Virus record (IMG/VR): IMGVR_UViG_3300034418_007971
Span: 1-64,000 of that record
Direction: 5' to 3' (one strand)
Length of the DNA: 64,000 bases
Source: a virus
The notes beneath the pieces are model-generated. The model did not search any database. It worked only from the letters and a program-made list of their open reading frames with translations, and had not been told where the DNA came from. Made by a program: the position numbers and the translations under genes. Below, piece by piece: positions 20,599 to 63,662 of the stretch (position 1 is its first letter; each line of letters starts with the position of its first letter).

Positions 20599-22383
20599 TT
20601 ATCTTAACTCTCTTAGGTCGAATGTTCTAACACCATCAACTGTAATCTTACCGTAGAAACGGTTGTTCACCATCTTCTTAGCGTATCTTGTCATGATACC
20701 CTTGATTGGTGTAAAGTTGAATGGGTTGTACATTGTTGGAGTCAACTGTAGAGGTACGTATGGAGCGTATACATATCCTGTGTCAAGTAATGATGAACCC
20801 TTGTGTCCCAACAATACTGTGTTTGGTGGGAAGTATGGGTCACGGTAAACTTGATATCTACCTGATAATGTACCAACTCTTTCGATACCCATGTTGTAGT
20901 TGTCCTGGTCAGGAGCCGCGTTTGAAACGTGGAAGTACTCAAGGTCATCGAAGATTGCTGAAATCTCTGAAGATACAACAATCCAGTTAGCACCACCTCT
21001 TAGAGTTGATTTATGGATTTGTGCAGAAATCTGATTGATTGCAGTAATCAATGTCTGATTCCAATCCTTTTGGTTGTAGTTGACAGAACCGTTAGATACT
21101 CTCTTCCAACCGTTGTAGTCCCATCTTAATGACCAAGCTGCACCTTTTCTTAAGTCTCTTAAAATCTCACGGTCAATCTCTGCAGCTACCTGCTCTGACA
21201 ACAATGCTGTCAATTCAGCTTCCGCGTCGATGTTGTGGAATGCAGAGACGTCTTGTGCGAGTTCTGGTGACCACTGAGCTCTTAACTTTCTTTCTGTAAC
21301 AGAAACAGTAACAGCTTCTAAGTCGAATGAAACTTCACCGATAGCGTCTTCAAATTCTAATGTCTCATAAACTCTGTATGAACCAACGAAGGTATCTCCT
21401 GATGCAATTGTTGAACCTGTGTATCCGTCTAATGACTGTGTTCCAATCTCAACTGGAGTTGAGAAATCAACCTCCAAGTAGATTTTACCTTCAACATCAC
21501 ATACATTGTCGTACTTTCCGCCAGGACCAGGGTAAGAACCACTATAGAAAGTAGTCTGTTGCTCGTTACCATAGTTAACGATACCCTTACCGTACTTCTG
21601 AGTTACAACTCTAAAGTTATAATAAGTGTCAGTAGCGCCGGTTTTGTAAGTTTCTAATGATGCTAAGAAGTCCTCAGTATCCATTTCTTGTCCGTCAGGA
21701 CCTATTAATTTACTAGCACCTGCTGATGAGAATCCTGTCATCATAAAGATTAATGACCTTACGTTTGCACTTGCTGCAGTACCTGTACCACCAGACGCGT
21801 AACTTAAAGCAACATCTAGTGTAGTTGCGGTTAAAACACCGTTGTTCCATCTAACAGGAACTAATGTTGGTGTTTGCTCTGCGTAAGCACCCTTCGAGTA
21901 ATCGAACAACCCAGCTGGGTCTGAATTTGGTGTACTACCTTCGTAGAAACGGTCATATAAGTTAGTTGAATTTGTGTAACCTGAATCTGTTGTTGATGGA
22001 CCGTTTGGTGCTCCGAATGGAGGAATGTGAGTTCCATCAGCGTTTCTGTTCTGAATCTTTGGAACAAAGTAGAACAACTTACCGATTGGTAGGTTCATAG
22101 CTTGAACTGAAACGATGTCGTTAGCCAATAACTTAGAGAAAACTCTTCTTACGATTGGGAAAACAACTGTTTCGAAAGAACCTGAACTGTCAGATGCCGC
22201 CGCTTCGTTTATCAAATATGATGCTTGGTTCTCATATAACTGAGCCATATTTTCTTTAGTGTGGCCTTTAAGACCATCGAGGAACCCTAATTTGTCCCAC
22301 TTGTTAATTGTGTCCTCCTTGATAACCTTAAGGTGCTTAAGACCGATGTTACCAACTAGACCTGATTCTAATAATGCTCCCAT
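20599..22383 (-). CDS. 23: Major capsid protein (T4 gp23-like)
   Basis: 594 residues. HK97-fold capsid subunit of T4 type. The first 60 residues form a helical propeptide (KEDTINKWDKLGFLDGLKG... NMAQLYENQASYLINE) ending at LINE|AAAS, which matches the [LI]-x-E cleavage site of the prohead protease and the position of the gp23 processing site. Downstream, VVFPIVRRVFSKLLANDIVSVQAMNLPIGKLFYFVPK corresponds to the T4 gp23 segment around VRRAIPNLIAFDICGVQPM. The C-terminal half contains the YNGWKRV and RYQVYRDPYFPPN strands. Last gene of the head module, 28 nt after the scaffold gene; codon use is less AT-biased than its neighbours, as expected for high expression. Confidence 0.93.
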   Translation of the reverse strand: MGALLESGLVGNIGLKHLKVIKEDTINKWDKLGFLDGLKGHTKENMAQLYENQASYLINEAAASDSSGSFETVVFPIVRRVFSKLLANDIVSVQAMNLPIGKLFYFVPKIQNRNADGTHIPPFGAPNGPSTTDSGYTNSTNLYDRFYEGSTPNSDPAGLFDYSKGAYAEQTPTLVPVRWNNGVLTATTLDVALSYASGGTGTAASANVRSLIFMMTGFSSAGASKLIGPDGQEMDTEDFLASLETYKTGATDTYYNFRVVTQKYGKGIVNYGNEQQTTFYSGSYPGPGGKYDNVCDVEGKIYLEVDFSTPVEIGTQSLDGYTGSTIASGDTFVGSYRVYETLEFEDAIGEVSFDLEAVTVSVTERKLRAQWSPELAQDVSAFHNIDAEAELTALLSEQVAAEIDREILRDLRKGAAWSLRWDYNGWKRVSNGSVNYNQKDWNQTLITAINQISAQIHKSTLRGGANWIVVSSEISAIFDDLEYFHVSNAAPDQDNYNMGIERVGTLSGRYQVYRDPYFPPNTVLLGHKGSSLLDTGYVYAPYVPLQLTPTMYNPFNFTPIKGIMTRYAKKMVNNRFYGKITVDGVRTFDLRELR

Positions 22384-24165: not shown

Positions 24166-24888
24166 TTAATAACCTAAATAATCGGAAAGTCTTTTCATTA
24201 AGTCAACACTTTTACCTAAACCACCATCAATCTTTGGTTCTTGTGACCTTAACTGAGTCTCTTCCTCTAAACTTTCTTCATACTTACCCTTATCATTTTT
24301 ATCTAAGAATAGATATGCACCTGGTGTAGATGGAGATGAAACTAAATCAAAACAGATTAATTCAAAATCGTCTTGTACTTCATTTCTTTCACCTTTCTTT
24401 ACTAATGAGCCAACACCACGAGAAGAAACACCCATAGTGACTCCTTGTCTCATTAAATTAGCCGCTTGGTCACCTGGACACGAAACTACACCCTCTGTAT
24501 GAAATCCAGGTGATGTCAATAATTTAATCTTTCCCATAAGTGTGTTACCTTCCCACCATACGTCTGTGATTAAGTGTGAGACACGGTCCAAATCTATCAA
24601 AGATGATTCAGGGTGGTTAAGTTCAGATATTGATAATCCTTTTTCGATTGCTTTTTTATAAACGTCAGCTTCTCTACGTAAAATCTTTTCAGGATACACT
24701 CTACCGTTTCTATTGGGGGTATCGTATTTTTGTAACGTCGCGTAAAACTCAAATGGTTTTGAATGGTCTAATTGACCATAAGACTCTTTTATAACTTGTG
24801 AATTACGGCTATCGTTAGGATTTACAAATCCGGCATCCCACTCTACTAAGATACCTTTACCTGAATCGTTTGGTCCTAAAATCTTCAT
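24166..24888 (-). CDS. 21: Prohead maturation protease (gp21-like)
   Basis: 240 residues. The T4-type serine protease pattern is visible: catalytic His in SELNHPESS (about 95), catalytic Ser in GVTMGVSSRGVGS (about 153-158), and a further conserved block ELICFDLVSSPSTPGAYL. Preceding strands FEFYATLQKYDTPNRNGRVYP are typical of the fold. It should cleave scaffold, capsid protein and packaged proteins after [LI]-x-E during head maturation. Position between portal and scaffold matches T4 gene order. A late-type motif lies 10 nt upstream. Confidence 0.9.
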   Translation of the reverse strand: MKILGPNDSGKGILVEWDAGFVNPNDSRNSQVIKESYGQLDHSKPFEFYATLQKYDTPNRNGRVYPEKILRREADVYKKAIEKGLSISELNHPESSLIDLDRVSHLITDVWWEGNTLMGKIKLLTSPGFHTEGVVSCPGDQAANLMRQGVTMGVSSRGVGSLVKKGERNEVQDDFELICFDLVSSPSTPGAYLFLDKNDKGKYEESLEEETQLRSQEPKIDGGLGKSVDLMKRLSDYLGY

Positions 24889-36599: not shown

Positions 36600-38621
36600 A
36601 TGATAGAATCAGTAGACCCAAACGATAAAGGACCAAGAAAAAAGAAAGAACAACAAAGTTCATCTAAGACCCCTGTACTAGACAATTTTTCGAGGGACTT
36701 GGTGAAACTAGCTTCAGAAGGAAGACTTGACCCTGTAATTGGTAGGGACAGTGAGATTAAAAGAATCGCTCAAATTCTTTCTCGTAGGAAGAAGAATAAC
36801 CCAATTATTATTGGTGAGCCAGGTTGTGGTAAAACCGCAATTGTAGAAGGTTTAGCTATGAAAATTTTTGAGGGTGATTGCCCTCAAAATCTATGTGATA
36901 AACGACTCGTTTCTTTGGATATGACATCTATTGTTGCAGGTACTAAGTACCGTGGACAATTTGAGGAAAGACTTAAGGTAATTCTTGATGAACTTCAAGA
37001 TAATCATGATATTATTATTTTTATCGATGAAATTCACACAATTATTGGTGCAGGTAATACCTCAGGTTCTTTAGATGCATCCAACATCTTTAAACCCGCA
37101 TTGGCTCGAGGTGAACTACAATGTGTAGGTGCAACCACCCTCGATGAATACCGTGAGAATATCGAGAAGGATGGTGCTTTGGAACGTAGATTTCAAAAGG
37201 TAATGGTTGACGGTTCAACTCCTGATGAGACTTTAGAAATTCTTCAGAACTTGAAGTCTCGTTATGAGGACCACCACAAGGTCGTGTACACAGATAAGGC
37301 ACTTCAGACGTGTGTAACACTTGCGGACCGTTATGTTACCGATAGGGAATTCCCTGACAAAGCAATCGATATTATGGATGAGGTTGGTGCTCGTGCACAA
37401 ATCAACGTTAAACTTCCTGAAATCATCGAAGAACTTCGAGCAGAAGCCCTTGAAATTAAAGATAAGAAGATTCAGGTTGTAAAGAGTCAGAAGTACGAGG
37501 AAGCTGCTCAACTACGTGACCGAGAACGTAAGATTATCGAAAAACTTGAATATGAGAAAGAAAAGTTTGATTCAAGAAAAGATGAGGAGCGTAAAGAAAT
37601 CACCGAAGAAATGATTTACGATGTAGTTTCACATATGACTAAGATTCCTTTATCTAAATTAAATGCAGACGATAAGGAGAGTCTGTTGGATTTGGAGAGT
37701 AACCTTAACTCATCTGTAATTGGTCAAGAAGCCGCGGTTAAGACGATTTCAAAAGCAATTCGTAGAAACCGTGTGGGTATTAAAGACCCAAGTCGTCCAA
37801 TCGGTTCGTTTATCTTCTTGGGCTCCACAGGTATTGGTAAGACACACTTAGCCAAACAATTGGCAAAAGAAATTTTTGGTGATGAGGATTCGTTAATCCG
37901 TGTTGACATGTCTGAATACCAAGAGAAATTCTCTATGAGTAGATTGATTGGTTCCCCTCCTGGTTATGTTGGATATGACCAAGGTGGTCAGTTGACCGAA
38001 GCAGTCAAAAACAAACCATACTCAGTAGTATTGTTTGATGAGATTGAAAAGGCAAATAAAGACATCTTCTCAATCCTCCTACAAATGATGGATGACGGTC
38101 ACCTAACAGACTCTTTCGGTAGAAAGATTAATTTCAGAAACTGTCTGATTATTATGACTTCCAATCTTGGTGTTAAGAAACTACAGGACTTCGGTTCAGG
38201 TGTTGGATTCGACACTACAACACGAATCTCAAATAACGAAGCAATGAAGAAGGCTTTGTTGGAGAAAGAGTTGAAAAATCACTTCACTCCTGAGTTCTTG
38301 AATCGCGTAGATGAGGTAGTAATCTTCAACCCACTAAGAGAAAATGAAGTTGAGCAAATCGTAGAGATTGAATTGTCTAAACTAGACCGTAGACTCGACC
38401 GTCTCGGATATGAAGTGACCATCGACAATAAAGTTAAGAAGTTCTTATCAGAAGTAGGTTTTGATGAAAAATATGGGGCAAGACCAATTAAACGAGCAAT
38501 TCAAGAGAAAATCGAAGATTTGATTTCAGAAGAAGTTCTTAGAGGTAATATCACAGAAGGCGTACCTTGTAAACTGAAAATGAAAGGAAAAGAAGAAGTA
38601 GTTTTAGAAAAGGGGAAATAA
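36600..38621 (+). CDS. ClpC-like Hsp100 AAA+ unfoldase lacking the N-domain
   Basis: 673 residues with two AAA+ modules. D1: Walker A GEPGCGKT at 72-79, Walker B FIDEIH at 141-146, arginine-finger region ALERRF. D2: Walker A GSTGIGKT at 408-415, Walker B LFDEIEKA at 478-485. A UVR motif ([18 protein letters not shown]) occupies 292-309, the place of the ClpC middle domain. The tripeptide VGF at 535-537 sits where ClpC/ClpA carry the ClpP-docking loop, so it can probably dock on host ClpP. The usual ~140-residue N-domain, which binds adaptors, is missing and replaced by a short polar start. It should unfold proteins for degradation, perhaps with altered choice of substrate. Confidence 0.9.
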
Positions 38622-43764: not shown

Positions 43765-44150
43765 GGGGGCGTTTTTGGATTTGACTGGTACAGTCAGGCA
43801 CAGAGTGCACGTAGTGAGAGGTTACCTATCACTTTAATACATGGTTACAAAACACAAACGGCGAAACTTTCGCAAAACTTCAGGCAGTCGGTTTACTCCG
43901 CACTGAAGAGGTTTACGCAGCCTAAGGCTCCGTTTACCGCGGGTCGGTCAGGACATATACCTAGGAACAGAAGTCCGTTGTTGAGGTGGAAAGGTGACTA
44001 AACCCTAAATTGAGTCACACATCTGTTGGTGGTAGAGGATGTTAAAATTCAACCACATATTTCGGATTGTTGAGAATCAATAATGACCTAAACGTGTAGT
44101 ACTCTCTGTTTGGGGTATACAGGACGGGAGTTCGAGTCTCCCCGCTTCCA
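43765..44150 (+). ncRNA. ssrA: tmRNA (transfer-messenger RNA)
   Basis: 386 nt, normal for tmRNA. The ends form a 7-bp acceptor stem: GGGGGCG at 43765 pairs with CGCTTCC near the 3' end (two G-U), followed by the discriminator A. The 3' part carries a T arm GGGAG-TTCGAGT-CTCCC, and the 5' end has the GGATTTGACTGG segment of tmRNA D-like regions. A reading frame from GGC at 43860 to TAA at 43923-43925 gives a 21-residue tag starting GETFAK and ending EEVYAA. Bacteroidota tags start with GE and end in AA, but are normally about half this length. CCA is not encoded in full (CTA follows). Rescues stalled ribosomes and tags the product for proteolysis. Confidence 0.93.
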
Positions 44151-44157
44151 CTAAAAT

Positions 44158-45761: not shown

Positions 45762-48700
45762 ATGCTTTTAACTTTTTTAAGGAATTTATTCCTTCTTACA
45801 CTCCCCCTGTTCCTATTTAATGGTAACTTAGGGGCTCAATGTGACGTTTTTATAGAACAAGGTTCTGTAGTCGTTACTGATAATGGTAGTGGTGTCAAAT
45901 TTCAGTTTGATGTTACTAACAATTCAGGTAGTGAATGGGAAGGGGATGTACTTAAAATGTATTGGTCACTTAATTCAAGTGCACCTATATGGACCATAGA
46001 TTATACCTCAAACAACAATGTTGGACCCTTACCTCCTGGACAAACTAGGACAATAACCACCCCATGGTTCGACATTCCAAATCTCCCTTCATGGTTTCCT
46101 GAAGACCCCGGTCCGGGTGGTGACTTGGACGATTATTGGGTCGAGGCTTTAGAATGGCCTTATTGGTCTGCAAATCCAAACGGTTTTGATGGGACGTGGT
46201 CGCAAATGAATCTACGTCTCGGAAGTTGTGGTTTGGGTGATGGTGCGTGGGTATATAACGATAACGGTGACCCTTATTATGGTCCTTTTAATAGTGATTG
46301 TCCCGATGTAAATAATGATGCGTTTTGTGATTGTGATGTTAATTTTCTTGGGTTTGACCCCGAAACGTATGATGTTAGTGTTGAGGTAGTATCTCACTGG
46401 AATTGTGGTACTTCTTTAAATACCAGTGGTTTTTCGAGTGAAATGGATTATGTCAATATGATTCAAATCGGTGCTCATGTACCTGGTTGGGATTATCCGT
46501 GGGGTTGTACTGCAGCTCAGTACCATTTAGGATGGACGTTTGATAATCCTGTAGCTTTTGAAGAGTTTTATGCTGGTGACACAATTAATTATAATATGTT
46601 TTCAGACGATACATTCTATGATGATTGTTTTCAGGAAATATTAGAAAGTGATACTTTAACTTCATGTTTAGAGATTGTTTTATGGCAAATTAATTATTCT
46701 GAAACCGCGATTGTCGGTGAGATAGATGGTGGATGGGCGGCAACATGTGGTACTTGCGCGAACCAAACTCAATTTTACCCTGATATGTCTATGGAGTTAA
46801 ACTCAATGAATATTTGTAATGCACCACCTCCATTGTATCCTGGTTGTATGGATTCAGATGCTGAAAATTATAACCCTAATGCGGGATATGATGATGGTTC
46901 GTGTACATATCCTCCCATTCTTGGGTGTATGAATCCAATTGCATGTAATTATGATGTTAATGCAACTGAAAACTATGGATGTATAACTTGTGAAACACCT
47001 TATGAAGAAGGTCTTGCGTGTAATGAGTTTCAAAATTCATCTAGCTATTGGGATTGGTATTTATCTGTTTTTAACTGTAACCAAGGATGTACAGACCCTG
47101 AAGCAATTAATTATGATGAAAATGCTGAAAATGATGATGGGTCATGTGAGTACGATACGATAACTTCACCTGACGCAAGTGGATACGTATCATTTTTAGG
47201 TACTATATGTAATAACGGTATACCATCTAACGAAGTTAATATATTGGTGATTAACCCCGATACGGGTAGTTTTGACGCTACTGATACCTTATTTAACTAC
47301 TGTGTTGAAGTACCTGAATTAGGGTTGGATAGTTGTCTGTACGGTGATGTTAACGCTTCCGATTATATGTTACCAGGTGAAGGTCAGGTAGTATGGAATG
47401 TTATTGTACCTAACTATATAACACAATTAACAGTAAATGCGTATTATGCTGAAGGTGAGATTGATGAAAACTCTTCTAATAATACTTACTTTTATTCAAA
47501 TCTTATTCAAGACCCCGATGTATGTCCCGTATTAGGGTGTACTGACCCTATTGCTGAAAATTATAATCCGTTGGCAACTGAAGATAATGGTAGCTGTGAA
47601 TATATGGTCGACCTATCATTAGATAGTGTAACTATAAACGAATACTGTGACGGATTTACCCCATACTGGATTCCTACAATACATCTTAACAATTTAACTA
47701 ACCCTGCAATAAATGAGTACTGTATTAAAATTCAAGTCTTAGGACAAACAAACGATACTATCTGTTTTAATGCAATGGGTACAACAATTAATTCATTCGG
47801 TGATATTTCATTAGAATGGCCCGAACCAATATACTCATATGGTACTGTTAGTATTCATGTTTTAGATGTTAATGGTGAAAGTCCTAACTCATGGGAAGAT
47901 TTCGGAGAAGATGATAACATCAGTAATAACATGTTAGTTTTGACTATCGGTAACCCTACTATTAATTGTGACGTTTTAGGATGTATAGATGAAACCGCTA
48001 ATAATTTTAATCCTAACGCAAATATAGATGATGGAAGTTGTACCTATGATATTACAGAATTAAATTATTTAGGGTCAGAATGTACGGTATATTGTGACCA
48101 AACAGGTCCTTACTATTACGTCACCTCCACCTTTCAAAATACGGGTAATGTTACAATTACTGATTTTTGTGCTGAGTGGAATGTAATTGGGGGTGAGGAA
48201 GAGATAGAGTGTTTTAATGGAGTTTTAGAACCTAATCAAACAGTAACTTTAGAATATGGTCCTATATACACTGATGGTAGTGGTGTTGTATGGGTCTATT
48301 TACAAGAACTAAATGGTGTTGTTTTAAACCCTGAAATAGGATTTACAGAAACATTGTTCTGTTTATCAGAAGCTGAATCAATTTGTATTTATGGTTGTAC
48401 AGATAATGAAGCGAACAATTACAACCCTGATGCGGACTTGGATGATGGGTCTTGTCAATATGATGTCTTTGGTTGTACGGACCCTGAAGCTAACAATTAC
48501 GACTCGACCGCTAACGTGGACGATGGCTCTTGTACTTATGACGTATTCGGTTGTACAGACCCAACCGCAAATAATTATAACCCCTTGGCTACGACCGATG
48601 ATGGAAGTTGTACTTATGATATCTATGGGTGTACTGATTCAAATGCAAATAACTTTAACCCGAACGCAAACGTGGATGACGGTTCTTGTGAATATGATGT

Positions 48701-49160
48701 ATTTGGGTGTACTGATGAAAGTGCTAATAATTATAATCCGTTGGCTAACGTAGATGATGGTTCATGTGAATATGACGTTTATGGATGTACGGACATGAAT
48801 GCTATTAACTACAACAGTGATGCAAATATAGATAACGGAACTTGTATTTATCCTGGTCCTTGTGATGAGTTCGATGGTCAAGCGTTCGCACCAAACGCAT
48901 TTAGTCCGAATAATGATGGTTTGAACGATTCTTGGGGTGTCATTACAGATGAAGAGTGTTGGAACTCATGGGAAGTGTTAATCTTTAACAGATGGGGTCA
49001 AATAATATATGAGATGAATAACCCATCTGATAGATGGGATGGTAGTTTTAGAAATGGTGAGTATTATGTTGAAGACGGTGTATATGCTTATACGTTACGA
49101 GCTGTGGCATGGAATTTGGAGACTATAGAAACTACAGGTTTCATAACCGTTCTCAGATAA
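45762..49160 (+). CDS. Type IX secretion cargo, CHU_C type B sorting domain, Cys-repeat adhesin-like
   Basis: 1132 residues. A Sec signal peptide (MLLTFLRNLFLLTLPLFLFNGNLGAQ) is followed by a Trp-rich beta region (to ~350). From 361 there are eleven copies of a Cys motif of the form GCTDxxAxNYNPxAxxDDGSCxY; the last six are in tandem at 878-1031. Residues about 1041-1132 are a CHU_C/gliding-motility type C-terminal domain (FAPNAFSPNNDGLNDSWGV, WEVLIFNRWGQIIYE, DGVYAYTLRAVAW, ending GFITVLR), the signal for export through T9SS. The same Cys motif occurs in exported proteins of Bacteroidota. It should end on the infected-cell surface or be shed. A phage copy is striking. Confidence 0.88.
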   Translation: MLLTFLRNLFLLTLPLFLFNGNLGAQCDVFIEQGSVVVTDNGSGVKFQFDVTNNSGSEWEGDVLKMYWSLNSSAPIWTIDYTSNNNVGPLPPGQTRTITTPWFDIPNLPSWFPEDPGPGGDLDDYWVEALEWPYWSANPNGFDGTWSQMNLRLGSCGLGDGAWVYNDNGDPYYGPFNSDCPDVNNDAFCDCDVNFLGFDPETYDVSVEVVSHWNCGTSLNTSGFSSEMDYVNMIQIGAHVPGWDYPWGCTAAQYHLGWTFDNPVAFEEFYAGDTINYNMFSDDTFYDDCFQEILESDTLTSCLEIVLWQINYSETAIVGEIDGGWAATCGTCANQTQFYPDMSMELNSMNICNAPPPLYPGCMDSDAENYNPNAGYDDGSCTYPPILGCMNPIACNYDVNATENYGCITCETPYEEGLACNEFQNSSSYWDWYLSVFNCNQGCTDPEAINYDENAENDDGSCEYDTITSPDASGYVSFLGTICNNGIPSNEVNILVINPDTGSFDATDTLFNYCVEVPELGLDSCLYGDVNASDYMLPGEGQVVWNVIVPNYITQLTVNAYYAEGEIDENSSNNTYFYSNLIQDPDVCPVLGCTDPIAENYNPLATEDNGSCEYMVDLSLDSVTINEYCDGFTPYWIPTIHLNNLTNPAINEYCIKIQVLGQTNDTICFNAMGTTINSFGDISLEWPEPIYSYGTVSIHVLDVNGESPNSWEDFGEDDNISNNMLVLTIGNPTINCDVLGCIDETANNFNPNANIDDGSCTYDITELNYLGSECTVYCDQTGPYYYVTSTFQNTGNVTITDFCAEWNVIGGEEEIECFNGVLEPNQTVTLEYGPIYTDGSGVVWVYLQELNGVVLNPEIGFTETLFCLSEAESICIYGCTDNEANNYNPDADLDDGSCQYDVFGCTDPEANNYDSTANVDDGSCTYDVFGCTDPTANNYNPLATTDDGSCTYDIYGCTDSNANNFNPNANVDDGSCEYDVFGCTDESANNYNPLANVDDGSCEYDVYGCTDMNAINYNSDANIDNGTCIYPGPCDEFDGQAFAPNAFSPNNDGLNDSWGVITDEECWNSWEVLIFNRWGQIIYEMNNPSDRWDGSFRNGEYYVEDGVYAYTLRAVAWNLETIETTGFITVLR
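48393..48854 (+). repeat. Six tandem GCTD...DDGSC repeats in the T9SS cargo
   Basis: Six units of about 26 residues each, joined by short YDVF/YDIY-type linkers. Third-position divergence between units is high, so these are old duplications, unlike the near-identical repeats in the portal and scaffold genes. Confidence 0.9.
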
Positions 49161-54031: not shown

Positions 54032-54265
54032 ATGGATAAATCAAATACACATTGGGATTTTTATAATTCAATTGAGAATAAAGTATTACTTAGTAGTAAT
54101 ACGACAGATGAGTTTTTACTAAGAATGAAAAAGGTTGATTTATTCTTTGGTGATTTTGAACGTATAGTTGATGATATTAGTGTAACTATTAAAAATATTG
54201 ACGTTAATCAATACATTATCAAAGAAACTATTTTTGAAAAGATTAAATCTTATTTTTTACGTTAA
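54032..54265 (+). CDS. Small hypothetical protein
   Basis: 77 residues, acidic and helical with a basic C-terminal end (FEKIKSYFLR). Preceded by a host-type promoter. It overlaps the 3' end of the convergent metalloprotease gene by 9 nt. Function unknown. Confidence 0.65.
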   Translation: MDKSNTHWDFYNSIENKVLLSSNTTDEFLLRMKKVDLFFGDFERIVDDISVTIKNIDVNQYIIKETIFEKIKSYFLR

Positions 54266-54958
54266 AGTGTTAGCTTTACCTCTACTAATACCTGATTCCC
54301 ATTTACTATTTTGGTCAATCATGTTTCCCTTACCTCTATTAACATTATCTGTCCACACGGTTATGGTTATTTGATTGGCTGGTCCGCGAGTTAATCCTGT
54401 TTCCCATGTAGTAACACCCGCATTTGTGGATGATGAGTCACCTCCTGCATCTCCACCTGTGTCTCCACCACCTTCTTCTTGTTCTGTTACTTCTTCATCC
54501 GCCGGAAATCCTTCTTCACCATATATTTCAGGATGTTGCAATCCGTACTTCTTAAGTAATTCACCTGCAACTGCATTTGCTTCATCTTCTATAGGACCAC
54601 CAACATTTTGTATTTTACCTTTCAATTCACCTTCTTCATTTTGATGATGATGTACTAACTCATGAGCCACTGACCTCATAATGTCTTGTAACGCCCTTTC
54701 TTTGGTATAGACGGTGACCTCCGCATTTTCTATATCTGCATTTTCACCATCTTCGTACCTATAAACTGCTGTTGTATCTACTTTAGACTTGTCTTCCGTG
54801 TAGTCAATATTAACCTCATTTTCTATACCTAACTCTTTTACAACTAAATCAACAAAATTTTCCAAATGTCTTTTATCCTCTGAAGGAAATAAAGATTCAC
54901 CTTCAGTAATGTTCATAAGGGTTTTAATACGATTAATATTTTCGTGTAATAGACTCAT
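54257..54958 (-). CDS. HExxH zinc metalloprotease with ITE|G leader
   Basis: 233 residues. Leader MSLLHENINRIKTLMNITE|GES, ending ITE|G at 19/20, matching the strict [LI]-x-E|G form. The catalytic core is MRSVAHELVHHHQNEEGEL (HExxH) with a downstream IEDEANAVAGELL whose Glu would be the third zinc ligand of a gluzincin-like site. The C-terminal ~80 residues are Gly/Ser-rich and then contain a pair of similar repeats, WETGLTRGPANQITIT and WESGISRGKANTLT. It looks like a proteolytic effector packaged in the head and activated or released by maturation. Strong candidate for ejection into the host. Confidence 0.75.
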   Translation of the reverse strand: MSLLHENINRIKTLMNITEGESLFPSEDKRHLENFVDLVVKELGIENEVNIDYTEDKSKVDTTAVYRYEDGENADIENAEVTVYTKERALQDIMRSVAHELVHHHQNEEGELKGKIQNVGGPIEDEANAVAGELLKKYGLQHPEIYGEEGFPADEEVTEQEEGGGDTGGDAGGDSSSTNAGVTTWETGLTRGPANQITITVWTDNVNRGKGNMIDQNSKWESGISRGKANTLT

Positions 54959-54982: not shown

Positions 54983-55975
54983 TTATTGGAACGTACAAGA
55001 TGGTGGATAAGTACACGGAGGTGGAGTAATACTACTTTTTCTTTCTCTTTGTCTTACTCTTATTATTGTCGATATTTCATGTGCACCACCCGAACCAGGT
55101 CCTAATTGTGATGTGGTTAAATCATATGAGTAGTGAAATACCAAATCACCCGTATCAACCCCAAAGTTAAATATCACAACATCTCTATATGAGTATCCTT
55201 CAACAAACCTAAACCCTGCACCAAATAAAAACTTATCTAAATTAATGTTATTATTTACCGTTAATTGTGAAAATTCACCTTGTTTTAAAAAAGAAAACGA
55301 AGGCATATAAGTTACATTTCTTCTAACATACGCGTATTTGTTTTTACTTATATGACCCCCACCATGTAGTCCATATTTTACTGGTAAATAACTTTCACCG
55401 AAAATTAATGATTGGTTGGGTGTATTAACGTGATTTGAGGCAAACCCAAAAAACCATTTATCGGAAAATAATAATAAACCAGAACTTAAGTCAAAATAAT
55501 GAACTTTCAAACCATTCATAAAAGGCTCATTAGTAATTAATGAGAATGATGTTCCGTTAAATGAGTCTTCAAAAAATAGTTTGTTATTATCGATAAAGTT
55601 TTGCTTATACCCTAACTCCAATCCGAATTTAATATTTAGTTTTGGAGAAAGACGTTGTTGATTACTATAAAATGTCGATATTGAGTTAAGTGAGTATATA
55701 CCGTTACCTGACCTATCATTCATTAGTGTGACGCCGAATCCACTATTTAAAGATGGGTCATATTCTTCGTAACTCAAAAAACTTGTGACAAATTGATTTC
55801 CTAACGCCGGCCATTGGTTTCTATATGACATCGTTAATTCGGGATTACTGGTTGAACCCGCAAAGGCAGGATTCAAATACAACTTATTGTTGTTAATTTG
55901 CGAAAAAGATACGTCCTGAGATATTCCAATAAATGAAAACAGGAGAAATAAGACTGATAATGTGTACTTAATCAT
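54983..55975 (-). CDS. PorP/SprF-family outer membrane protein
   Basis: 330 residues. Signal peptide MIKYTLSVLFLLFSFIGISQ. The PorP/SprF pattern is clear: QINNNKLYLNPAFAGSTSNPELTMSYRNQWPALGNQF, then SGFGVTLMNDRSGNGIYSLNSISTFYS, and a beta-barrel body with alternating strands to ~310. The protein ends with a basic stretch and a Pro/Cys-rich tail (ITPPPCTYPPSCTFQ). In Bacteroidota, SprF is needed to export SprB, a cargo with a type B C-terminal domain. The phage cargo at 45762 carries the same type of domain, so the two may work as a pair. Late-type motif 3 nt upstream. Confidence 0.9.
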   Translation of the reverse strand: MIKYTLSVLFLLFSFIGISQDVSFSQINNNKLYLNPAFAGSTSNPELTMSYRNQWPALGNQFVTSFLSYEEYDPSLNSGFGVTLMNDRSGNGIYSLNSISTFYSNQQRLSPKLNIKFGLELGYKQNFIDNNKLFFEDSFNGTSFSLITNEPFMNGLKVHYFDLSSGLLLFSDKWFFGFASNHVNTPNQSLIFGESYLPVKYGLHGGGHISKNKYAYVRRNVTYMPSFSFLKQGEFSQLTVNNNINLDKFLFGAGFRFVEGYSYRDVVIFNFGVDTGDLVFHYSYDLTTSQLGPGSGGAHEISTIIRVRQRERKSSITPPPCTYPPSCTFQ

Positions 55976-58598: not shown

Positions 58599-58612
58599 GG
58601 GGTTTTGTTTTT
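58580..58612 (+). terminator. Intrinsic terminator overlapping the gene end
   Basis: AAAACCCCTC / GAGGGGTTTT stem with a 7-nt loop containing the stop region of the upstream gene; T-rich tail. Also usable by the minus-strand gene ending at 58611. Confidence 0.85.
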
Positions 58613-59627
58613 ATAGGAATTTTTTAAACCTATTAAACATTTCTGTTATTCGTTCTTTATCTTCAATAAATGATTCTTTTAAATCTTCGTCTATTTCTTC
58701 ATACATAGAACCTGAACCACATTCTAAACATTCACCTTCCCTCATTTCGCTACCACACTGTTCACAGGTTTCTTTTTCCATAACTTCACCTTCATACATA
58801 GAACCTGAACCACATTCTAAACATTCACCTTCCCTCATTTCGCTACCACACTGTTCACAGGTTTCTTTCTCATCTAAATGACTTTTTATATGGTCATCAT
58901 ACTCGTCGGGAGTTACTTTACCATCTCCATCTTCGTCAAAATGTTTATGTAATTCGTTTTTTGAAATTGTTCCGTTATCATTTTCATCCGCACCTTCATA
59001 TAAATCGGTGTCCATAGCACCTTCTGAGTCAAATTGGTAAGCCGGTACCTCATCATCATAATCTGCAGTTATACTACCATCAAACATAGACATTATTGAG
59101 TCAATATCCATTCCGTATGAATCTTCTGAGTATGTCATGTCTTCGTCACCGAATTGGTCTGGACCTCCTGATTCAAAGTCATAAGCAGCTTCTACATCTG
59201 ATACATCCATATCATCGGCAGCATATTCTTTAACTTCTTCACTAACACTTGCGTGGTATGCATCTAAAGCTTCTTCTGCGTCCTTTTCACTTTTAAAACC
59301 ATCTCTGAAAATTCCACCTTTTTTGTTATTCATGATTACCCACTCATCACCTTCTTTCTTAATACACCCTGAACCACCTTCAGATTTTGCACATCCTTTA
59401 CCTTTCTGTTTGCTGACTACAGACTCATTAACCAAATGATTTCTGTATTGACCCACTTCACCTCTGTTGTTCACAGTAATACCTTGTGAGTCTGATGGAC
59501 CTTCGTCCTGTAATAATGGTTGTGGACCTGATGGAATATTACCGGTAGCATATCCGTTGTAGAATGCTGAGTGTTGTTGAAGGATTGAATTTTTCTCTTC
59601 GTCTGACATTGTAGAATAACCTCTCAT
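58611..59627 (-). CDS. EF-hand plus tandem zinc-ribbon protein, packaged candidate
   Basis: 338 residues from ATG at 59627, chosen because a late-type motif lies 13 nt upstream. The leader region STMSDEEKNSILQQHSAFYNGY resembles the leader of the protein at 41675 (DEExxxILxxH). A central KGCAKSEGGSGCIKKEGDEWVIMNNKKGGIFRDGFKSEKDAEEALDAYHA block follows. Then come two EF-hand loops (DENDNGTISKNEL at ~214-226, DEDGDGKVTPDEY at ~231-243), and two perfectly repeated CxxC...CxxC ribbons (TCEQCGSEMREGECLECGSG). Both calcium and zinc sites look intact. A rare combination in a phage protein; activity unknown. Confidence 0.75.
   Translation of the reverse strand: MRGYSTMSDEEKNSILQQHSAFYNGYATGNIPSGPQPLLQDEGPSDSQGITVNNRGEVGQYRNHLVNESVVSKQKGKGCAKSEGGSGCIKKEGDEWVIMNNKKGGIFRDGFKSEKDAEEALDAYHASVSEEVKEYAADDMDVSDVEAAYDFESGGPDQFGDEDMTYSEDSYGMDIDSIMSMFDGSITADYDDEVPAYQFDSEGAMDTDLYEGADENDNGTISKNELHKHFDEDGDGKVTPDEYDDHIKSHLDEKETCEQCGSEMREGECLECGSGSMYEGEVMEKETCEQCGSEMREGECLECGSGSMYEEIDEDLKESFIEDKERITEMFNRFKKFL
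58697..58869 (-). repeat. 93-nt direct repeat encoding the zinc-ribbon twice
   Basis: Two copies offset by 93 nt, identical over about 80 nt (58697-58776 and 58790-58869), each with four Cys. Perfect identity implies a very recent duplication or gene conversion. Confidence 0.9.
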
Positions 59628-59640
59628 GACTGTTTTTTTA

Positions 59641-59649
59641 TATAAATAT
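59641..59649 (-). promoter_or_regulatory. Phage late-type motif ATATTTATA
   Basis: Minus strand, 13 nt before the start at 59627. Confidence 0.45.
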
Positions 59650-59692
59650 GTTTTAGTTACCAAATAATTTGACATTCTAAATAAACATTAAT

Positions 59693-59998: not shown

Positions 59999-60412
59999 AT
60001 GACCGTACACGAAATCAGTAACTACTTCAATCAGTGCCCAAACATGGAAAAGGCTTATAAAGAGCACAAAAACATTGGTCGGTTGATTCGTAGTAACGTA
60101 TTTAAGCACACTAGCAATCGTCACTGGGATAATATGGACTTACTTTACAAAATCACATATATTAAGGTCAGTCGTAATGATGACTTGTTGGTCAACATCA
60201 AAGTCTCAGGTACTATGGGTCGTTCTTCTTGGCGTAGTAAGGAAAATACTTGTGTTACTGATTACGTTAAAATTAATCACTCAACCTCTCGTCGTCGTAA
60301 TGACGATATTCGTCGGGCAGTTCGAGACGATGTTCAAAAGTTTTTCCGTCTTTTCGGTATGGATACTTACAAGATTGAGATTGGTAAAGTTAAAGTGTGT
60401 AAGGAACTTTAA
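59999..60412 (+). CDS. Basic hypothetical protein
   Basis: 137 residues, basic (KVSRNDDLLVNIKVSGTMGRSSWRSKENTC, SRRRNDDIRRAVRDDVQKFFRLFG). The Arg-rich centre suggests nucleic acid or protein binding. It has its own host-type promoter and more C/G-rich codons than most neighbours. Convergent with the PPK2-fusion gene, overlapping by 4 nt. Function unknown. Confidence 0.6.
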   Translation: MTVHEISNYFNQCPNMEKAYKEHKNIGRLIRSNVFKHTSNRHWDNMDLLYKITYIKVSRNDDLLVNIKVSGTMGRSSWRSKENTCVTDYVKINHSTSRRRNDDIRRAVRDDVQKFFRLFGMDTYKIEIGKVKVCKEL

Positions 60413-62970
60413 AGTTTCATCATAAAGTACCTCAGTGCTAATGGACCTAATTTCCTTAATTCTCGATTAATATTATTAGTACTTAGTTCTTGTTCCTTAT
60501 CCTGTAGGTTTCTAAACGCCGCAGATATCATAACCTGTTGTGACTTCTCCGCAAGTTGTAACAGGTTTTCTTTTTCATCTTCATCTTCAATCTGTTGGTA
60601 ACTATCCTGTAGTTCTTGTATCTTTAAGTATTTTTCCAAGAAGTCTCTACCACTCCAAGTAAAATCAGGCGATTGCATCATATTAACAATACCACTGTCT
60701 CTTAACGCTATTAAGAAATTAAAGATGTGACCACCATCATCGGATTGTAAAATCGGTAATAATGGTTTCATATCGTCAATAAAATTTTCATTAATAGTTG
60801 TAATAGATTCAGGGTATGTATCACCTATAGTACCCTCATTCTTATCAGGGTAATCTGAATTTTTTAATATATGTCTCAGTAAGTTCAAAGAACCAATTCT
60901 TTTGTCGTTAGTGTCTACAACTGTCCATGGAACTTCACCTTTAGCTAAATCAAAAACTTTTTCTTTATACTCAGTGTAATCATCCCATTTCTCTAAAGAC
61001 TTTTCATCGTTAGGTGAGAACTTCCAATATTTTAGTGGAGATGACTTCCTTAAGTCAAATCTTTTTTCTTGAGTTCTGGGAGTTATTGACAACCAAAATT
61101 TATATAAATCCACACCTTTACTAACCAATGACTTCTCAAAATCGTTTACAGTGTTCATAAACTCTTCATATTCCCCTTCTTCACTATAACCCATAACAGG
61201 TTCCACAATTCCTCTATTATACCAACTACGGTCAAAGAATGTGATTTTACCGGGTTCTATATGTTGTGAATATCTACCAAACCAATCTTTTCTCTCTTCG
61301 GGAGTTGGAATCCCTAATGCAACCACATTGTAGTATTTTGGGTCTAAGTATTTTGTAATGGTTCTAATAGTTGAACCCTTACCTGCGGTGTCTCTACCTT
61401 CAAAAACTACTGCAATAGATTTACCAGTTTCTTTAATATGTTCTTGTAGTTTTAATAACTCAACCTGTAAGGGTAACAATTCTTTTTTAAATTGTTTTCT
61501 ACCAATCGAAGATACTTCAGGTTCTTCACCCCCATATACCAACTCGTCTTCAACACTATAATCGTCATCTTCAAATTCTGAGGATTGTCTTTTACCAATA
61601 GAGTTAATTAATATTTCTAAGTATTCTCTGGCGTTCGTCCTTGGGTTACCTGACTTTAGAAATTTTCTTTCTAAGTTTCTTATCACTAATTCGTTTATAT
61701 CCTCGTCTTTTAATTGTGATAATAAATCTTCCATTTCTGAGGGGTCTATGTCGTTACTTCTAAGAACGTCTGATAAGTCTTTTTTAGATTCATCCATTTG
61801 ACCGGGTAAATCAATCAATCCTTTTTCTTTCATAATTCTGGCCAATCTGTCCCCATATAAATCAATAACTCTTTTTAAGAACAGGTCAGGATTTTTTCTA
61901 ATATATTGAATTATATCGAATCTAATATTTTTAGCATAACTACCAAATAAATCAGATATTCTATCATCTTTTCGTGAGGAATCTTTTCTATAATGTAAGT
62001 TTTTAATTTCTTTATTAGTTACCTTTGGAAAAGTAATTCTATTGCAGAGTCCCCCTACTTTGTCTTGTGGTATTGAAATAGTATAATTACCCTTACCTGA
62101 TTTGTAATTTTCAATAATTCTATTTATTAGACTGTCAGTGTCAATAACACAATATGAAATATCATCCTCATTTAAAACCGAAAAAACCCAATTAAGTGAC
62201 TTAGAGGGGTCTTCTCCAACTACAAAAGAAGTTTTTAACATTAAAATTTTATACTCATCAAACTCACTACCCATATTCATTAAATCTATAGGTCTTTTTA
62301 AATCATCTATCTCATACCCATCTTCAATAAGTTCTATCTTAGCCGCTTCAAAACCGTTTGATAACGAACCTAAGTCAAATCTTTCTCCTGGTTGTGTTAA
62401 TTTAACCGAATAATAGTCTTCACCTATTTTTATATCTTCTTTCCTTTGTGATATTATTGGCTTTCCTCCTGTTAATCCCGCCAATAAACCTTCAAAATTA
62501 AAACCTCTACCATCTTTATCTCTTTTAAAAGATATGAAATACTCGTAAAATCTAATTTTATCTACTAATCTTTTTAGTGTACTATTTAAATCAATTCCGT
62601 CATTTAAGTTAAAAAATGGAATCCCCTCACTTCTAAGAATTCTTTTTATTACGTTACTTGATGACATCTTTGTTTTAGGAATAGGTCCGATAGTCGACAT
62701 TATTTTACTTAATGATGTGGATGTTGCACCAACCTCCTCTTTTATTATGGATTCGTCATCTTTTACCCAAACATCGGTATCACCAATAAGATTCATAAAT
62801 CGGTTATTATCCCAGTCAACATAATATATGGGCTCAACACTCCATGGGTCACTACCAACACCTTTTACTGTTCCTTTAGTACCTACAGTAACCGGTGAGT
62901 ATGGGTCACTCATAACGATTAGAATGATTCTATCACCAACTTCAAGTTTAGGATTGATTTTTGAATTCAT
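60409..62970 (-). CDS. Large protein with polyphosphate kinase 2 (PPK2) domain
   Basis: 853 residues. The N-terminal ~70 residues are an SH3-like domain (LEVGDRIILIVMSDPYSPVTVGTKGTVKGV... VDWDNNRF) of DUF4314-like form. Residues ~100-480 are unknown; FEGLLAGLTGG then KEDIKIGEDYYSVKL could be a nuclease-like site, weak. The PPK2 domain spans ~491-705: Walker A FEGRDTAGKGS at 523-533, FFDRSWYNRG at ~578-587, and SPLKYWKFSPNDEKSLEKWDDYTEYKEKVF. These are the core motifs of PPK2 enzymes, which move phosphate between polyphosphate and nucleotides. The C-terminal ~140 residues are helical. A late-type motif (ATATTTATG) is 17 nt upstream, so it may be a virion protein. Confidence 0.85.
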   Translation of the reverse strand: MNSKINPKLEVGDRIILIVMSDPYSPVTVGTKGTVKGVGSDPWSVEPIYYVDWDNNRFMNLIGDTDVWVKDDESIIKEEVGATSTSLSKIMSTIGPIPKTKMSSSNVIKRILRSEGIPFFNLNDGIDLNSTLKRLVDKIRFYEYFISFKRDKDGRGFNFEGLLAGLTGGKPIISQRKEDIKIGEDYYSVKLTQPGERFDLGSLSNGFEAAKIELIEDGYEIDDLKRPIDLMNMGSEFDEYKILMLKTSFVVGEDPSKSLNWVFSVLNEDDISYCVIDTDSLINRIIENYKSGKGNYTISIPQDKVGGLCNRITFPKVTNKEIKNLHYRKDSSRKDDRISDLFGSYAKNIRFDIIQYIRKNPDLFLKRVIDLYGDRLARIMKEKGLIDLPGQMDESKKDLSDVLRSNDIDPSEMEDLLSQLKDEDINELVIRNLERKFLKSGNPRTNAREYLEILINSIGKRQSSEFEDDDYSVEDELVYGGEEPEVSSIGRKQFKKELLPLQVELLKLQEHIKETGKSIAVVFEGRDTAGKGSTIRTITKYLDPKYYNVVALGIPTPEERKDWFGRYSQHIEPGKITFFDRSWYNRGIVEPVMGYSEEGEYEEFMNTVNDFEKSLVSKGVDLYKFWLSITPRTQEKRFDLRKSSPLKYWKFSPNDEKSLEKWDDYTEYKEKVFDLAKGEVPWTVVDTNDKRIGSLNLLRHILKNSDYPDKNEGTIGDTYPESITTINENFIDDMKPLLPILQSDDGGHIFNFLIALRDSGIVNMMQSPDFTWSGRDFLEKYLKIQELQDSYQQIEDEDEKENLLQLAEKSQQVMISAAFRNLQDKEQELSTNNINRELRKLGPLALRYFMMKL

Positions 62971-63035: not shown

Positions 63036-63662
63036 ATGAAAGTTATCTTAACGGAAAGTCAATATAAGAAATTATTAAAGGAACAATACAAGGATAGTGT
63101 AAGTAATACCCTATCAAAAATTAGTGATTTTACTTTTAATGTAATTAAAGATGCTTCCAATCAACTAAAGTTCGATTTTAGATTCTTATTAACTTATGGT
63201 GCAGGAATCGGAGCTATTCTACAATCAGTTTTTGACTATCTACAGGGTACGTTTACTAATTTAGATACTAACCAGATTGCAGGTCTTACTGTTATGGCAA
63301 TAGCAGTTGTATTTTATGAAAATAAAGACTTAAAAGAATTATTAAATAAAATGAGAGGTAATGAATTGTCTAACGCAATTTCATATACCGAAAAAATTAA
63401 AAATAAATTTTCACATTTATTAAAAGTTTTAGGATTATCAATCCATAGAACATCTAATATAGTATCATATAGCTTCTTAGTACCTGTTTTGTCTATCCTT
63501 ATTGATGTTGTGACTAAACATGGTATTGACTCAGAACAATTTGAAATGTTGTTAGAGGCTTTATCTACCTCAGCATTAATTGCAATACCAGGTGTTGCGA
63601 TAAGAGATGTTTTAATTAAAGCGGCTGAGATGGTCGAGTCTAAAAAAATCAGTCAAACGTAA
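63036..63662 (+). CDS. Membrane protein with LKE|Q leader, packaged candidate
   Basis: 208 residues. Leader MKVILTESQYKKLLKE|Q (residue 16), the LTESQYxxLL class of leader. After a hydrophilic part come hydrophobic segments: FRFLLTYGAGIGAILQSVFDYL, TNQIAGLTVMAIAVVFY, SYSFLVPVLSILIDVV, and ALSTSALIAIPGVAIRDVL. No N-terminal signal peptide. Like the protein at 52689 it combines a capsid-type leader with membrane helices. Overlaps the convergent SAP-domain gene by 14 nt. Confidence 0.65.
   Translation: MKVILTESQYKKLLKEQYKDSVSNTLSKISDFTFNVIKDASNQLKFDFRFLLTYGAGIGAILQSVFDYLQGTFTNLDTNQIAGLTVMAIAVVFYENKDLKELLNKMRGNELSNAISYTEKIKNKFSHLLKVLGLSIHRTSNIVSYSFLVPVLSILIDVVTKHGIDSEQFEMLLEALSTSALIAIPGVAIRDVLIKAAEMVESKKISQT

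Follow-up and report, generated by a model that had tools for sequence, protein, structure and literature searches.

A class I polyphosphate kinase carried as an exchangeable module in a putative head-targeted cargo polyprotein of a tailed phage

The cargo that phages are known to package includes, for example, RNA polymerases, ADP-ribosyltransferases and anti-restriction proteins. The internal proteins of phage T4 provide a precedent for leaders processed by the prohead protease gp21, which cleaves after Glu in the motif L/I-X-E, and capsid targeting sequences have been described in the same system (PMC9026906). The polyvalent proteins of phages and conjugative elements unite several effector domains in one chain, and many of them are predicted to be packaged and ejected (PMC5512222). 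Among the polyphosphate kinase 2 (PPK2) enzymes, an Asn after RSWY is the published signature of class I, whose members prefer nucleoside diphosphates (PMC8776046, PMC11641546), and two studies describe the PPK2 of viral contigs as an auxiliary gene (PMC13188868, citing Li et al. 2025 Water Research; PMC9636769). Here we describe a PPK2 that forms part of an 853-amino acid (aa) protein encoded in a 64,000-nucleotide window, positions 1 to 64,000 of the IMG/VR record IMGVR_UViG_3300034418_007971, a tailed-phage contig of 71,488 bp. We consider it rather probable, from sequence comparisons, that this is a head-targeted cargo polyprotein from which the PPK2 would be cut free in the prohead, ejected with the DNA, and used to regenerate ATP and GTP from host polyphosphate.

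The reading frame of the 853-residue PPK2 protein in the original prediction is intact and lies on the minus strand, a point absent from that prediction (Table 1). Pfam family PF03976 matches residues 491-711 over profile positions 4-227 of 229 (E=7.4e-70), a PDB sequence search matches the 853-aa protein to solved PPK2 structures with E-values down to 3.6e-66, and the AlphaFold2 model of the whole protein aligns with Francisella PPK2 (5LLB) with a TM-score of 0.93 over the target, a root-mean-square deviation of 1.9 and 44% identity. Residue D580 pairs with D117 of the Francisella enzyme, the residue mutated in 5LLF. The PPK2 domain is complete and its catalytic motifs are intact, as had been proposed, and both Walker A and DRSWYNR are retained in 69/69 distinct viral relatives, which rules out a decayed PPK2 and means that the original prediction survives the refutation test it had set for itself. 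PHROGs offers no good family for PPK2, the top match being the thymidylate kinase family phrog_761 (E=8e-4).

The Asn following RSWY is N585, and the same residue is present in all 69 of these relatives. It predicts a class I enzyme converting ADP and GDP to ATP and GTP, and points to class I instead of the class II or III activity on nucleoside monophosphates. Because of this residue, regeneration of energy and nucleoside triphosphates is favored over synthesis of deoxynucleoside triphosphate precursors from monophosphates; of the two products originally suggested, the first is thus favored and the second disfavored. The protein resembles the class I PPK2s of Francisella tularensis (5LLB/5LL0) and Sinorhizobium meliloti (SMc02148, 6DZG) in its fold, Walker A and B motifs, lid region and Asn after RSWY, at approximately 40-44% identity. 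Unlike these bacterial enzymes, the viral clade has in common a helical domain of about 95 aa ahead of the kinase, and its members sit behind leaders or inside larger proteins.

Scanning viral contigs with two PPK2 peptide patterns yielded 348 viral loci, and the arrangement of PPK2 in these is varied. Among the distinct relatives it is found near-alone (344-413 aa) or within larger proteins, from 541 aa to upwards of 2,377 aa, with a stand-alone form of about 365 aa being the commonest. In L084 and L148, for example, it accompanies phage lysozyme and tail lysozyme domains, in L026 and L041 a metalloprotease-like protein, and in L022, L028 and L030 it is one of the modules of a long multi-module protein. 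L160 retains the DUF4314 domain of the window protein, its middle module at 79% and its C-terminal domain at 76%, with PPK2 swapped for an unrelated module, and the borders of the swap are exact: LPGEMDE/S on the left and DAINE/G on the right (the slash marks a putative cleavage position). The middle module has a different sequence in its place in L015, and it occurs alone behind the leader MKIKITESQYKLYLQE, directly followed by a putative cleavage position, in L165-L170; the window gene at 63036 opens with a leader of the same kind, MKVILTESQYKKLLKEQ. Seven of the loci with a PPK2 gene additionally encode a PPK2-free protein of 179-219 aa that consists of DUF4314 and the C-terminal helical domain. 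In L026 the PPK2 is inserted into a metalloprotease-like protein, a PPK2-free homologue of which (L008:4372-5232) is encoded near the window's PPK2 gene, just past the window end, and comparison of L028, L030 and L022 reveals indels of 250, 486 and 256 columns. The borders of these indels and of the L026 insertion are at, or a few residues from, [LIVM]xE.

These comparisons place the nuclease-like module and PPK2 of the window protein in the linker of a small DUF4314-helical protein. The original prediction read the protein as a fusion of a whole PPK2 into a late phage protein. 'Fusion' is probably the wrong word, as the swap, the insertion and the stand-alone relatives display modules that can be exchanged and whose borders are putative cleavage sites, and PPK2 occurs in several different larger architectures; a fused multidomain enzyme is therefore not the best reading. 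We also observed that in the open frames of L028 (IMGVR 3300012928_001820; 1,668 aa) and L030 (3300025127_006147; upwards of 2,377 aa) many modules, including a kinase-like first module and PPK2, are parted by LNE/INE-type motifs.

Three candidate cleavage sites lie at the module borders of the window protein. IKE78 and INE728 fit L/I-X-E and are conserved, and the border before PPK2 is MDE394; all three are predicted sites. The protein has 12 copies of [LI]xE, and only those ending in E78 and E728 fall in segments with a predicted local distance difference test score (pLDDT) below 50. The motif is present in the DUF4314 linker of all 16 proteins compared, with or without PPK2, and follows PPK2 in all ten of the non-redundant relatives that are extended at the C-terminus (null mean 2.4; 0/5000 trials as high). 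In the relatives the border before PPK2 reads LTE, LNE, LSE, LGE or IME.

The phage encodes a gp21-type prohead serine protease that is the proposed processing enzyme, and a matching site is seen in its T4-type major capsid protein. This site, LINE60/A (codons 22204-22215), is propeptide-like and precedes the conserved region, and LINE/[AS] is conserved in all seven T4-like capsid proteins read. T4 gp23, which is annotated as cleaved by gp21, has FLTE/A at a comparable place; this comparison rests on reading the two sequences, because MAFFT alignment with T4 gp23 misplaces the cleavage region. Across the record, [LI]xE occurs within the first 32 residues of 22 of the 31 minus-strand genes, where 10.8 are expected and 0/3000 trials were as high, and it is not enriched at the N-termini of the plus-strand genes below 19 kb (7/20, expected 6.7). 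In 195 gene clusters around PPK2 loci the Glu of the motif peaks at positions 8-11 (25 versus about 10 expected from background). Stand-alone PPK2s open with leaders such as MRNLLTEVSKMKNMMGLQE, and huge-phage PPK2 starts MINNFIKFINE/E, which resembles the start of T4 IPIII/IPII, MKTYQEFIAE/A. A gp21-type match was found in 9 of the 12 related records checked; in the three huge phages it is weak, yet the capsid gene is only some 3 kb away. The Moraxella phage has no gp21-type protease match, and its PPK2 is also without such a leader. As separate observations, the gp21-like matches of the huge phages LR745206, LR756502 and LR756501 are in open frames of about 700-811 aa, far longer than T4 gp21, and the capsid-protein match of LR756501 (a 735-kb phage) at 77465-78169 is read through one in-frame TAA.

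The locus shares with the T4 internal proteins (IPII, IPIII, Alt) a gp21-type protease, the L/I-X-E motif, and short leaders on the stand-alone relatives. It differs in that the putative cargo is a metabolic kinase, which in the window belongs as one module to a multi-site polyprotein lacking a short leader. With polyvalent proteins it shares the presence of several putative effector domains in one chain, and it differs from them in that the borders bear the motif of the phage's own head protease, for which we propose processing by that enzyme; the text of the polyvalent-protein paper (PMC5512222) contains neither PPK2 nor polyphosphate.

We propose that a small conserved phage protein, consisting of DUF4314 and a helical domain, carries the nuclease-like module and the class I PPK2 in its linker, and that this polyprotein would be enclosed in the prohead during head assembly. 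The gp21-type serine protease would then cut after the Glu residues of IKE78, MDE394 and INE728, and the freed PPK2 of about 334 aa would stay in the capsid and leave with the genome at ejection. Once in the new host, the enzyme would draw on host polyphosphate to convert ADP and GDP into ATP and GTP, before phage gene expression. The suggestion in the original prediction that the enzyme might be delivered by the virion gains support from the gp21-type motifs at the borders, the T4-type leaders on stand-alone relatives, and the presence of the prohead protease. The sequences themselves show an intact PPK2 with its class I signature, the exchange of modules at junctions that bear the motif, and, within these phages, both the protease and a capsid-protein site that fits it; cleavage, packaging, ejection and the direction of the reaction in vivo are inferred.

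Several points weigh against this proposal. The [LI]xE motif is short, and ten copies are inside ordered regions of the 853-aa protein, while site 2, MDE394, has Met at P3 and is a weaker fit to L/I-X-E. The relatives are not independent of each other, so the motif counts given above should be taken as descriptive, not as exact probabilities. Two of the eight T4-like contigs checked are without a gp21 match, possibly because they are fragments. The window protein opens with DUF4314 and lacks a short leader of the T4 type; its targeting would then depend on DUF4314 or on the whole precursor, and for this reason we liken the protein to the T4-type internal proteins without filing it as a member. 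Finally, late expression would be expected because the PPK2 gene and the head genes share one strand, and the label 'late' is to be read in that sense.

Some of the same observations could be accommodated if the protein were an ordinary late-expressed auxiliary metabolic enzyme, staying whole in the cytoplasm and converting polyphosphate to ATP and GTP, with junction motifs that are simply acidic flexible linkers. Two studies report viral ppk2 as an auxiliary gene, and transcripts of it from active viruses (PMC13188868, PMC9636769), most relatives are stand-alone proteins of about 365 aa, and packaging is unnecessary for enzyme function. However, we regard this explanation as unlikely, since it does not account for the presence of the phage's own protease motif at module borders in independent lineages, for the leaders ending in [LI]xE on stand-alone copies, or for the recurrence of the motif at the capsid-protein site. 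A packaged protein that remains uncut, comparable to some polyvalent proteins, appears improbable. Its nuclease-like and PPK2 parts would be ejected as one chain and act jointly on host DNA and nucleotide pools, for which the PD-(D/E)XK nuclease-like character of the middle module would be suitable; packaged multi-effector proteins are known, and phage N4 packages its virion RNA polymerase without processing (PMC5512222). But the modules are found separately and in varied orders, the junctions fit the cognate protease motif and are in predicted disorder, and a gp21-type protease is encoded.

It is also conceivable, though very improbable, that the PPK2 runs in reverse and makes polyphosphate, for instance as a phosphate store or DNA counter-ion. 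Some class I PPK2s do favor polyphosphate synthesis, notably with Mn2+ (PMC8776046), but the closest structural type, that of Francisella and Sinorhizobium, is described as Mg2+-dependent and phosphorylating ADP and GDP. Two further candidates were set aside. A single bifunctional nuclease-kinase enzyme was not adopted, as the L160 swap and the stand-alone modules argue against covalent linkage being needed. An assembly artefact or host contamination was rejected in view of the closest full-length relatives, which are 84% identical and lie on four other viral contigs, the largest of 270 kb, and of the genes for capsid, portal and terminase that this record itself carries.

The other parts of the protein are consistent in outline with the original prediction. 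The SH3-like N-terminal domain it described corresponds to DUF4314, and the helical C-terminus is borne out by the AlphaFold2 model. The region between the N-terminal domain and the kinase, which had been given as one large unknown, splits into a PD-(D/E)XK-like module (approximately residues 79-394) and the helical domain of the viral clade (approximately 395-490). Structural matches to the former are mostly restriction endonucleases (3NDH, NhoI, MspI, PvuII, HinP1I), with Z about 7, a borderline range that makes 'nuclease-like' a lead and not an assignment; Foldseek gave E=3.7e-3, and a PDB sequence search with the module gave no credible match. Residues E160, D179, S188 and K190 are invariant in an alignment of ten relatives, and the module has SxK where PD-(D/E)XK nucleases have (D/E)xK.

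Table 1. Coordinates of features in the window. A slash marks a putative cleavage position.
Feature	Coordinates	Strand	Basis or remarks
Whole open reading frame, putative cargo polyprotein with PPK2	60409..62970	minus	ATG start, 853 aa, intact
DUF4314, SH3-like N-terminal domain, residues 10-66	62773..62943	minus	PF14192 E=1.9e-6, passing the gathering cut-off narrowly; five strands in model
Candidate cleavage site 1, IIKE78/E, residues 75-78	62737..62748	minus	Linker 73-80 with pLDDT<50
PD-(D/E)XK nuclease-like module, residues 79-394	61789..62736	minus	AlphaFold2 mean pLDDT 85; restriction-endonuclease matches
Candidate cleavage site 2, QMDE394/S, residues 391-394	61789..61800	minus	Left border of L160 replacement
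Helical domain, about residues 395-490	61501..61788	minus	Alignments and core model of 69 viral proteins
PPK2 catalytic domain, residues 491-711	60838..61500	minus	Pfam, PDB, signature residue
Walker A, EGRDTAGKG, residues 524-532	61375..61401	minus	Intact
Walker B / DRSWYNR, residues 580-586	61213..61233	minus	Intact
Candidate cleavage site 3, TINE728/N, residues 725-728	60787..60798	minus	Linker 728-731 with pLDDT<50; right border of L160 replacement
C-terminal helical domain, residues 729-853	60412..60786	minus	Joined straight to DUF4314 in PPK2-free proteins
gp21-type prohead serine protease, 240 aa, proposed processing enzyme	24166..24888	minus	PF03420 E=2.5e-22
T4-type major capsid protein	20599..22383	minus	phrog_138 E=1.8e-66

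In a phylogenetic tree of 51 sequences, the 26 viral representatives drawn from T4-like and huge phages all fall in one group with 100/100 support. This group also takes in L251, a long-branched sequence from Neomarinimicrobiota at a locus that appears cellular on inspection, and the PPK2s of the Moraxella phage and a faecal phage contig group among bacterial sequences. The cellular sample comprised the best 80 matches, at most about 49% identical. Related PPK2s of about 390-404 aa are present in three huge phages of 635, 642 and 735 kb; the largest of these, LR756501, also has a second, separate PPK2 of about 291 aa at 447874-448578 (E=2e-66).

The T4-type major capsid protein, portal, large terminase and gp21-type prohead protease are all encoded on the minus strand, as is the PPK2 gene. 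Other genes of the window include a PorP/SprF family type IX secretion membrane protein (54983-55975, minus strand; PF11751 E=1.6e-45), which is unusual for a phage and suggests a Bacteroidota host. A candidate M78/IrrE-like metalloprotease (54257-54958, minus strand) with the motif AHELVHHH and a weak Pfam match bears an N-terminal leader, MSLLHENINRIKTLMNITEG, of the same type as those of the PPK2 relatives. A 354-aa protein (58611-59675, minus strand) contains a stretch resembling an EF-hand, and a zinc-ribbon-like segment, CEQCGSEMREGECLECGSGSMYE, is repeated in it. On the plus strand are a transfer-messenger RNA gene (43765-44151) with the tag peptide GETFAKLQAVGLLRTEEVYAA, a Clp-like ATP-dependent protease ATPase (36600-38621; phrog_4871 E=9e-246), and a 1,132-aa protein (45762-49160) whose start resembles a signal peptide and which matches no PHROG at E<=0.001.

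That viral ppk2 occurs as an auxiliary gene is already known. The accessible parts of PMC13188868 and PMC9636769 read these as phosphorus-cycling genes and make no mention of modules, cleavage or packaging, and the open-access literature searched yielded no description of PPK2 packaged in the head, of modules exchanged at prohead-protease motifs, or of this architecture. A literature search on polyphosphate and phage infection gave no mechanistic precedent, and neither polyphosphate nor prohead protease was found in the text of a jumbo-phage review. It is possible, though here we are more tentative, that T4-like and huge phages have a general cargo-polyprotein system in which swappable enzyme modules with prohead-protease-motif borders are cut in the head and ejected, one widespread module being a polyphosphate-fuelled generator of ATP and GTP that would free the energy supply of the infecting genome from dependence on phage gene expression. 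If the proposal for the window protein is correct, an energy-regenerating enzyme would join the known packaged cargo of phages, which would bring with them the means to tap host polyphosphate from the earliest moments of infection, ahead of phage gene expression. Ecological studies of phosphorus would then need to read viral ppk2 genes differently. The virion contents of uncultured T4-like and huge phages are mostly unknown, and the junction rule, by which modules end at the head-protease motif of the phage itself, would allow their packaged cargo to be predicted from sequence alone.

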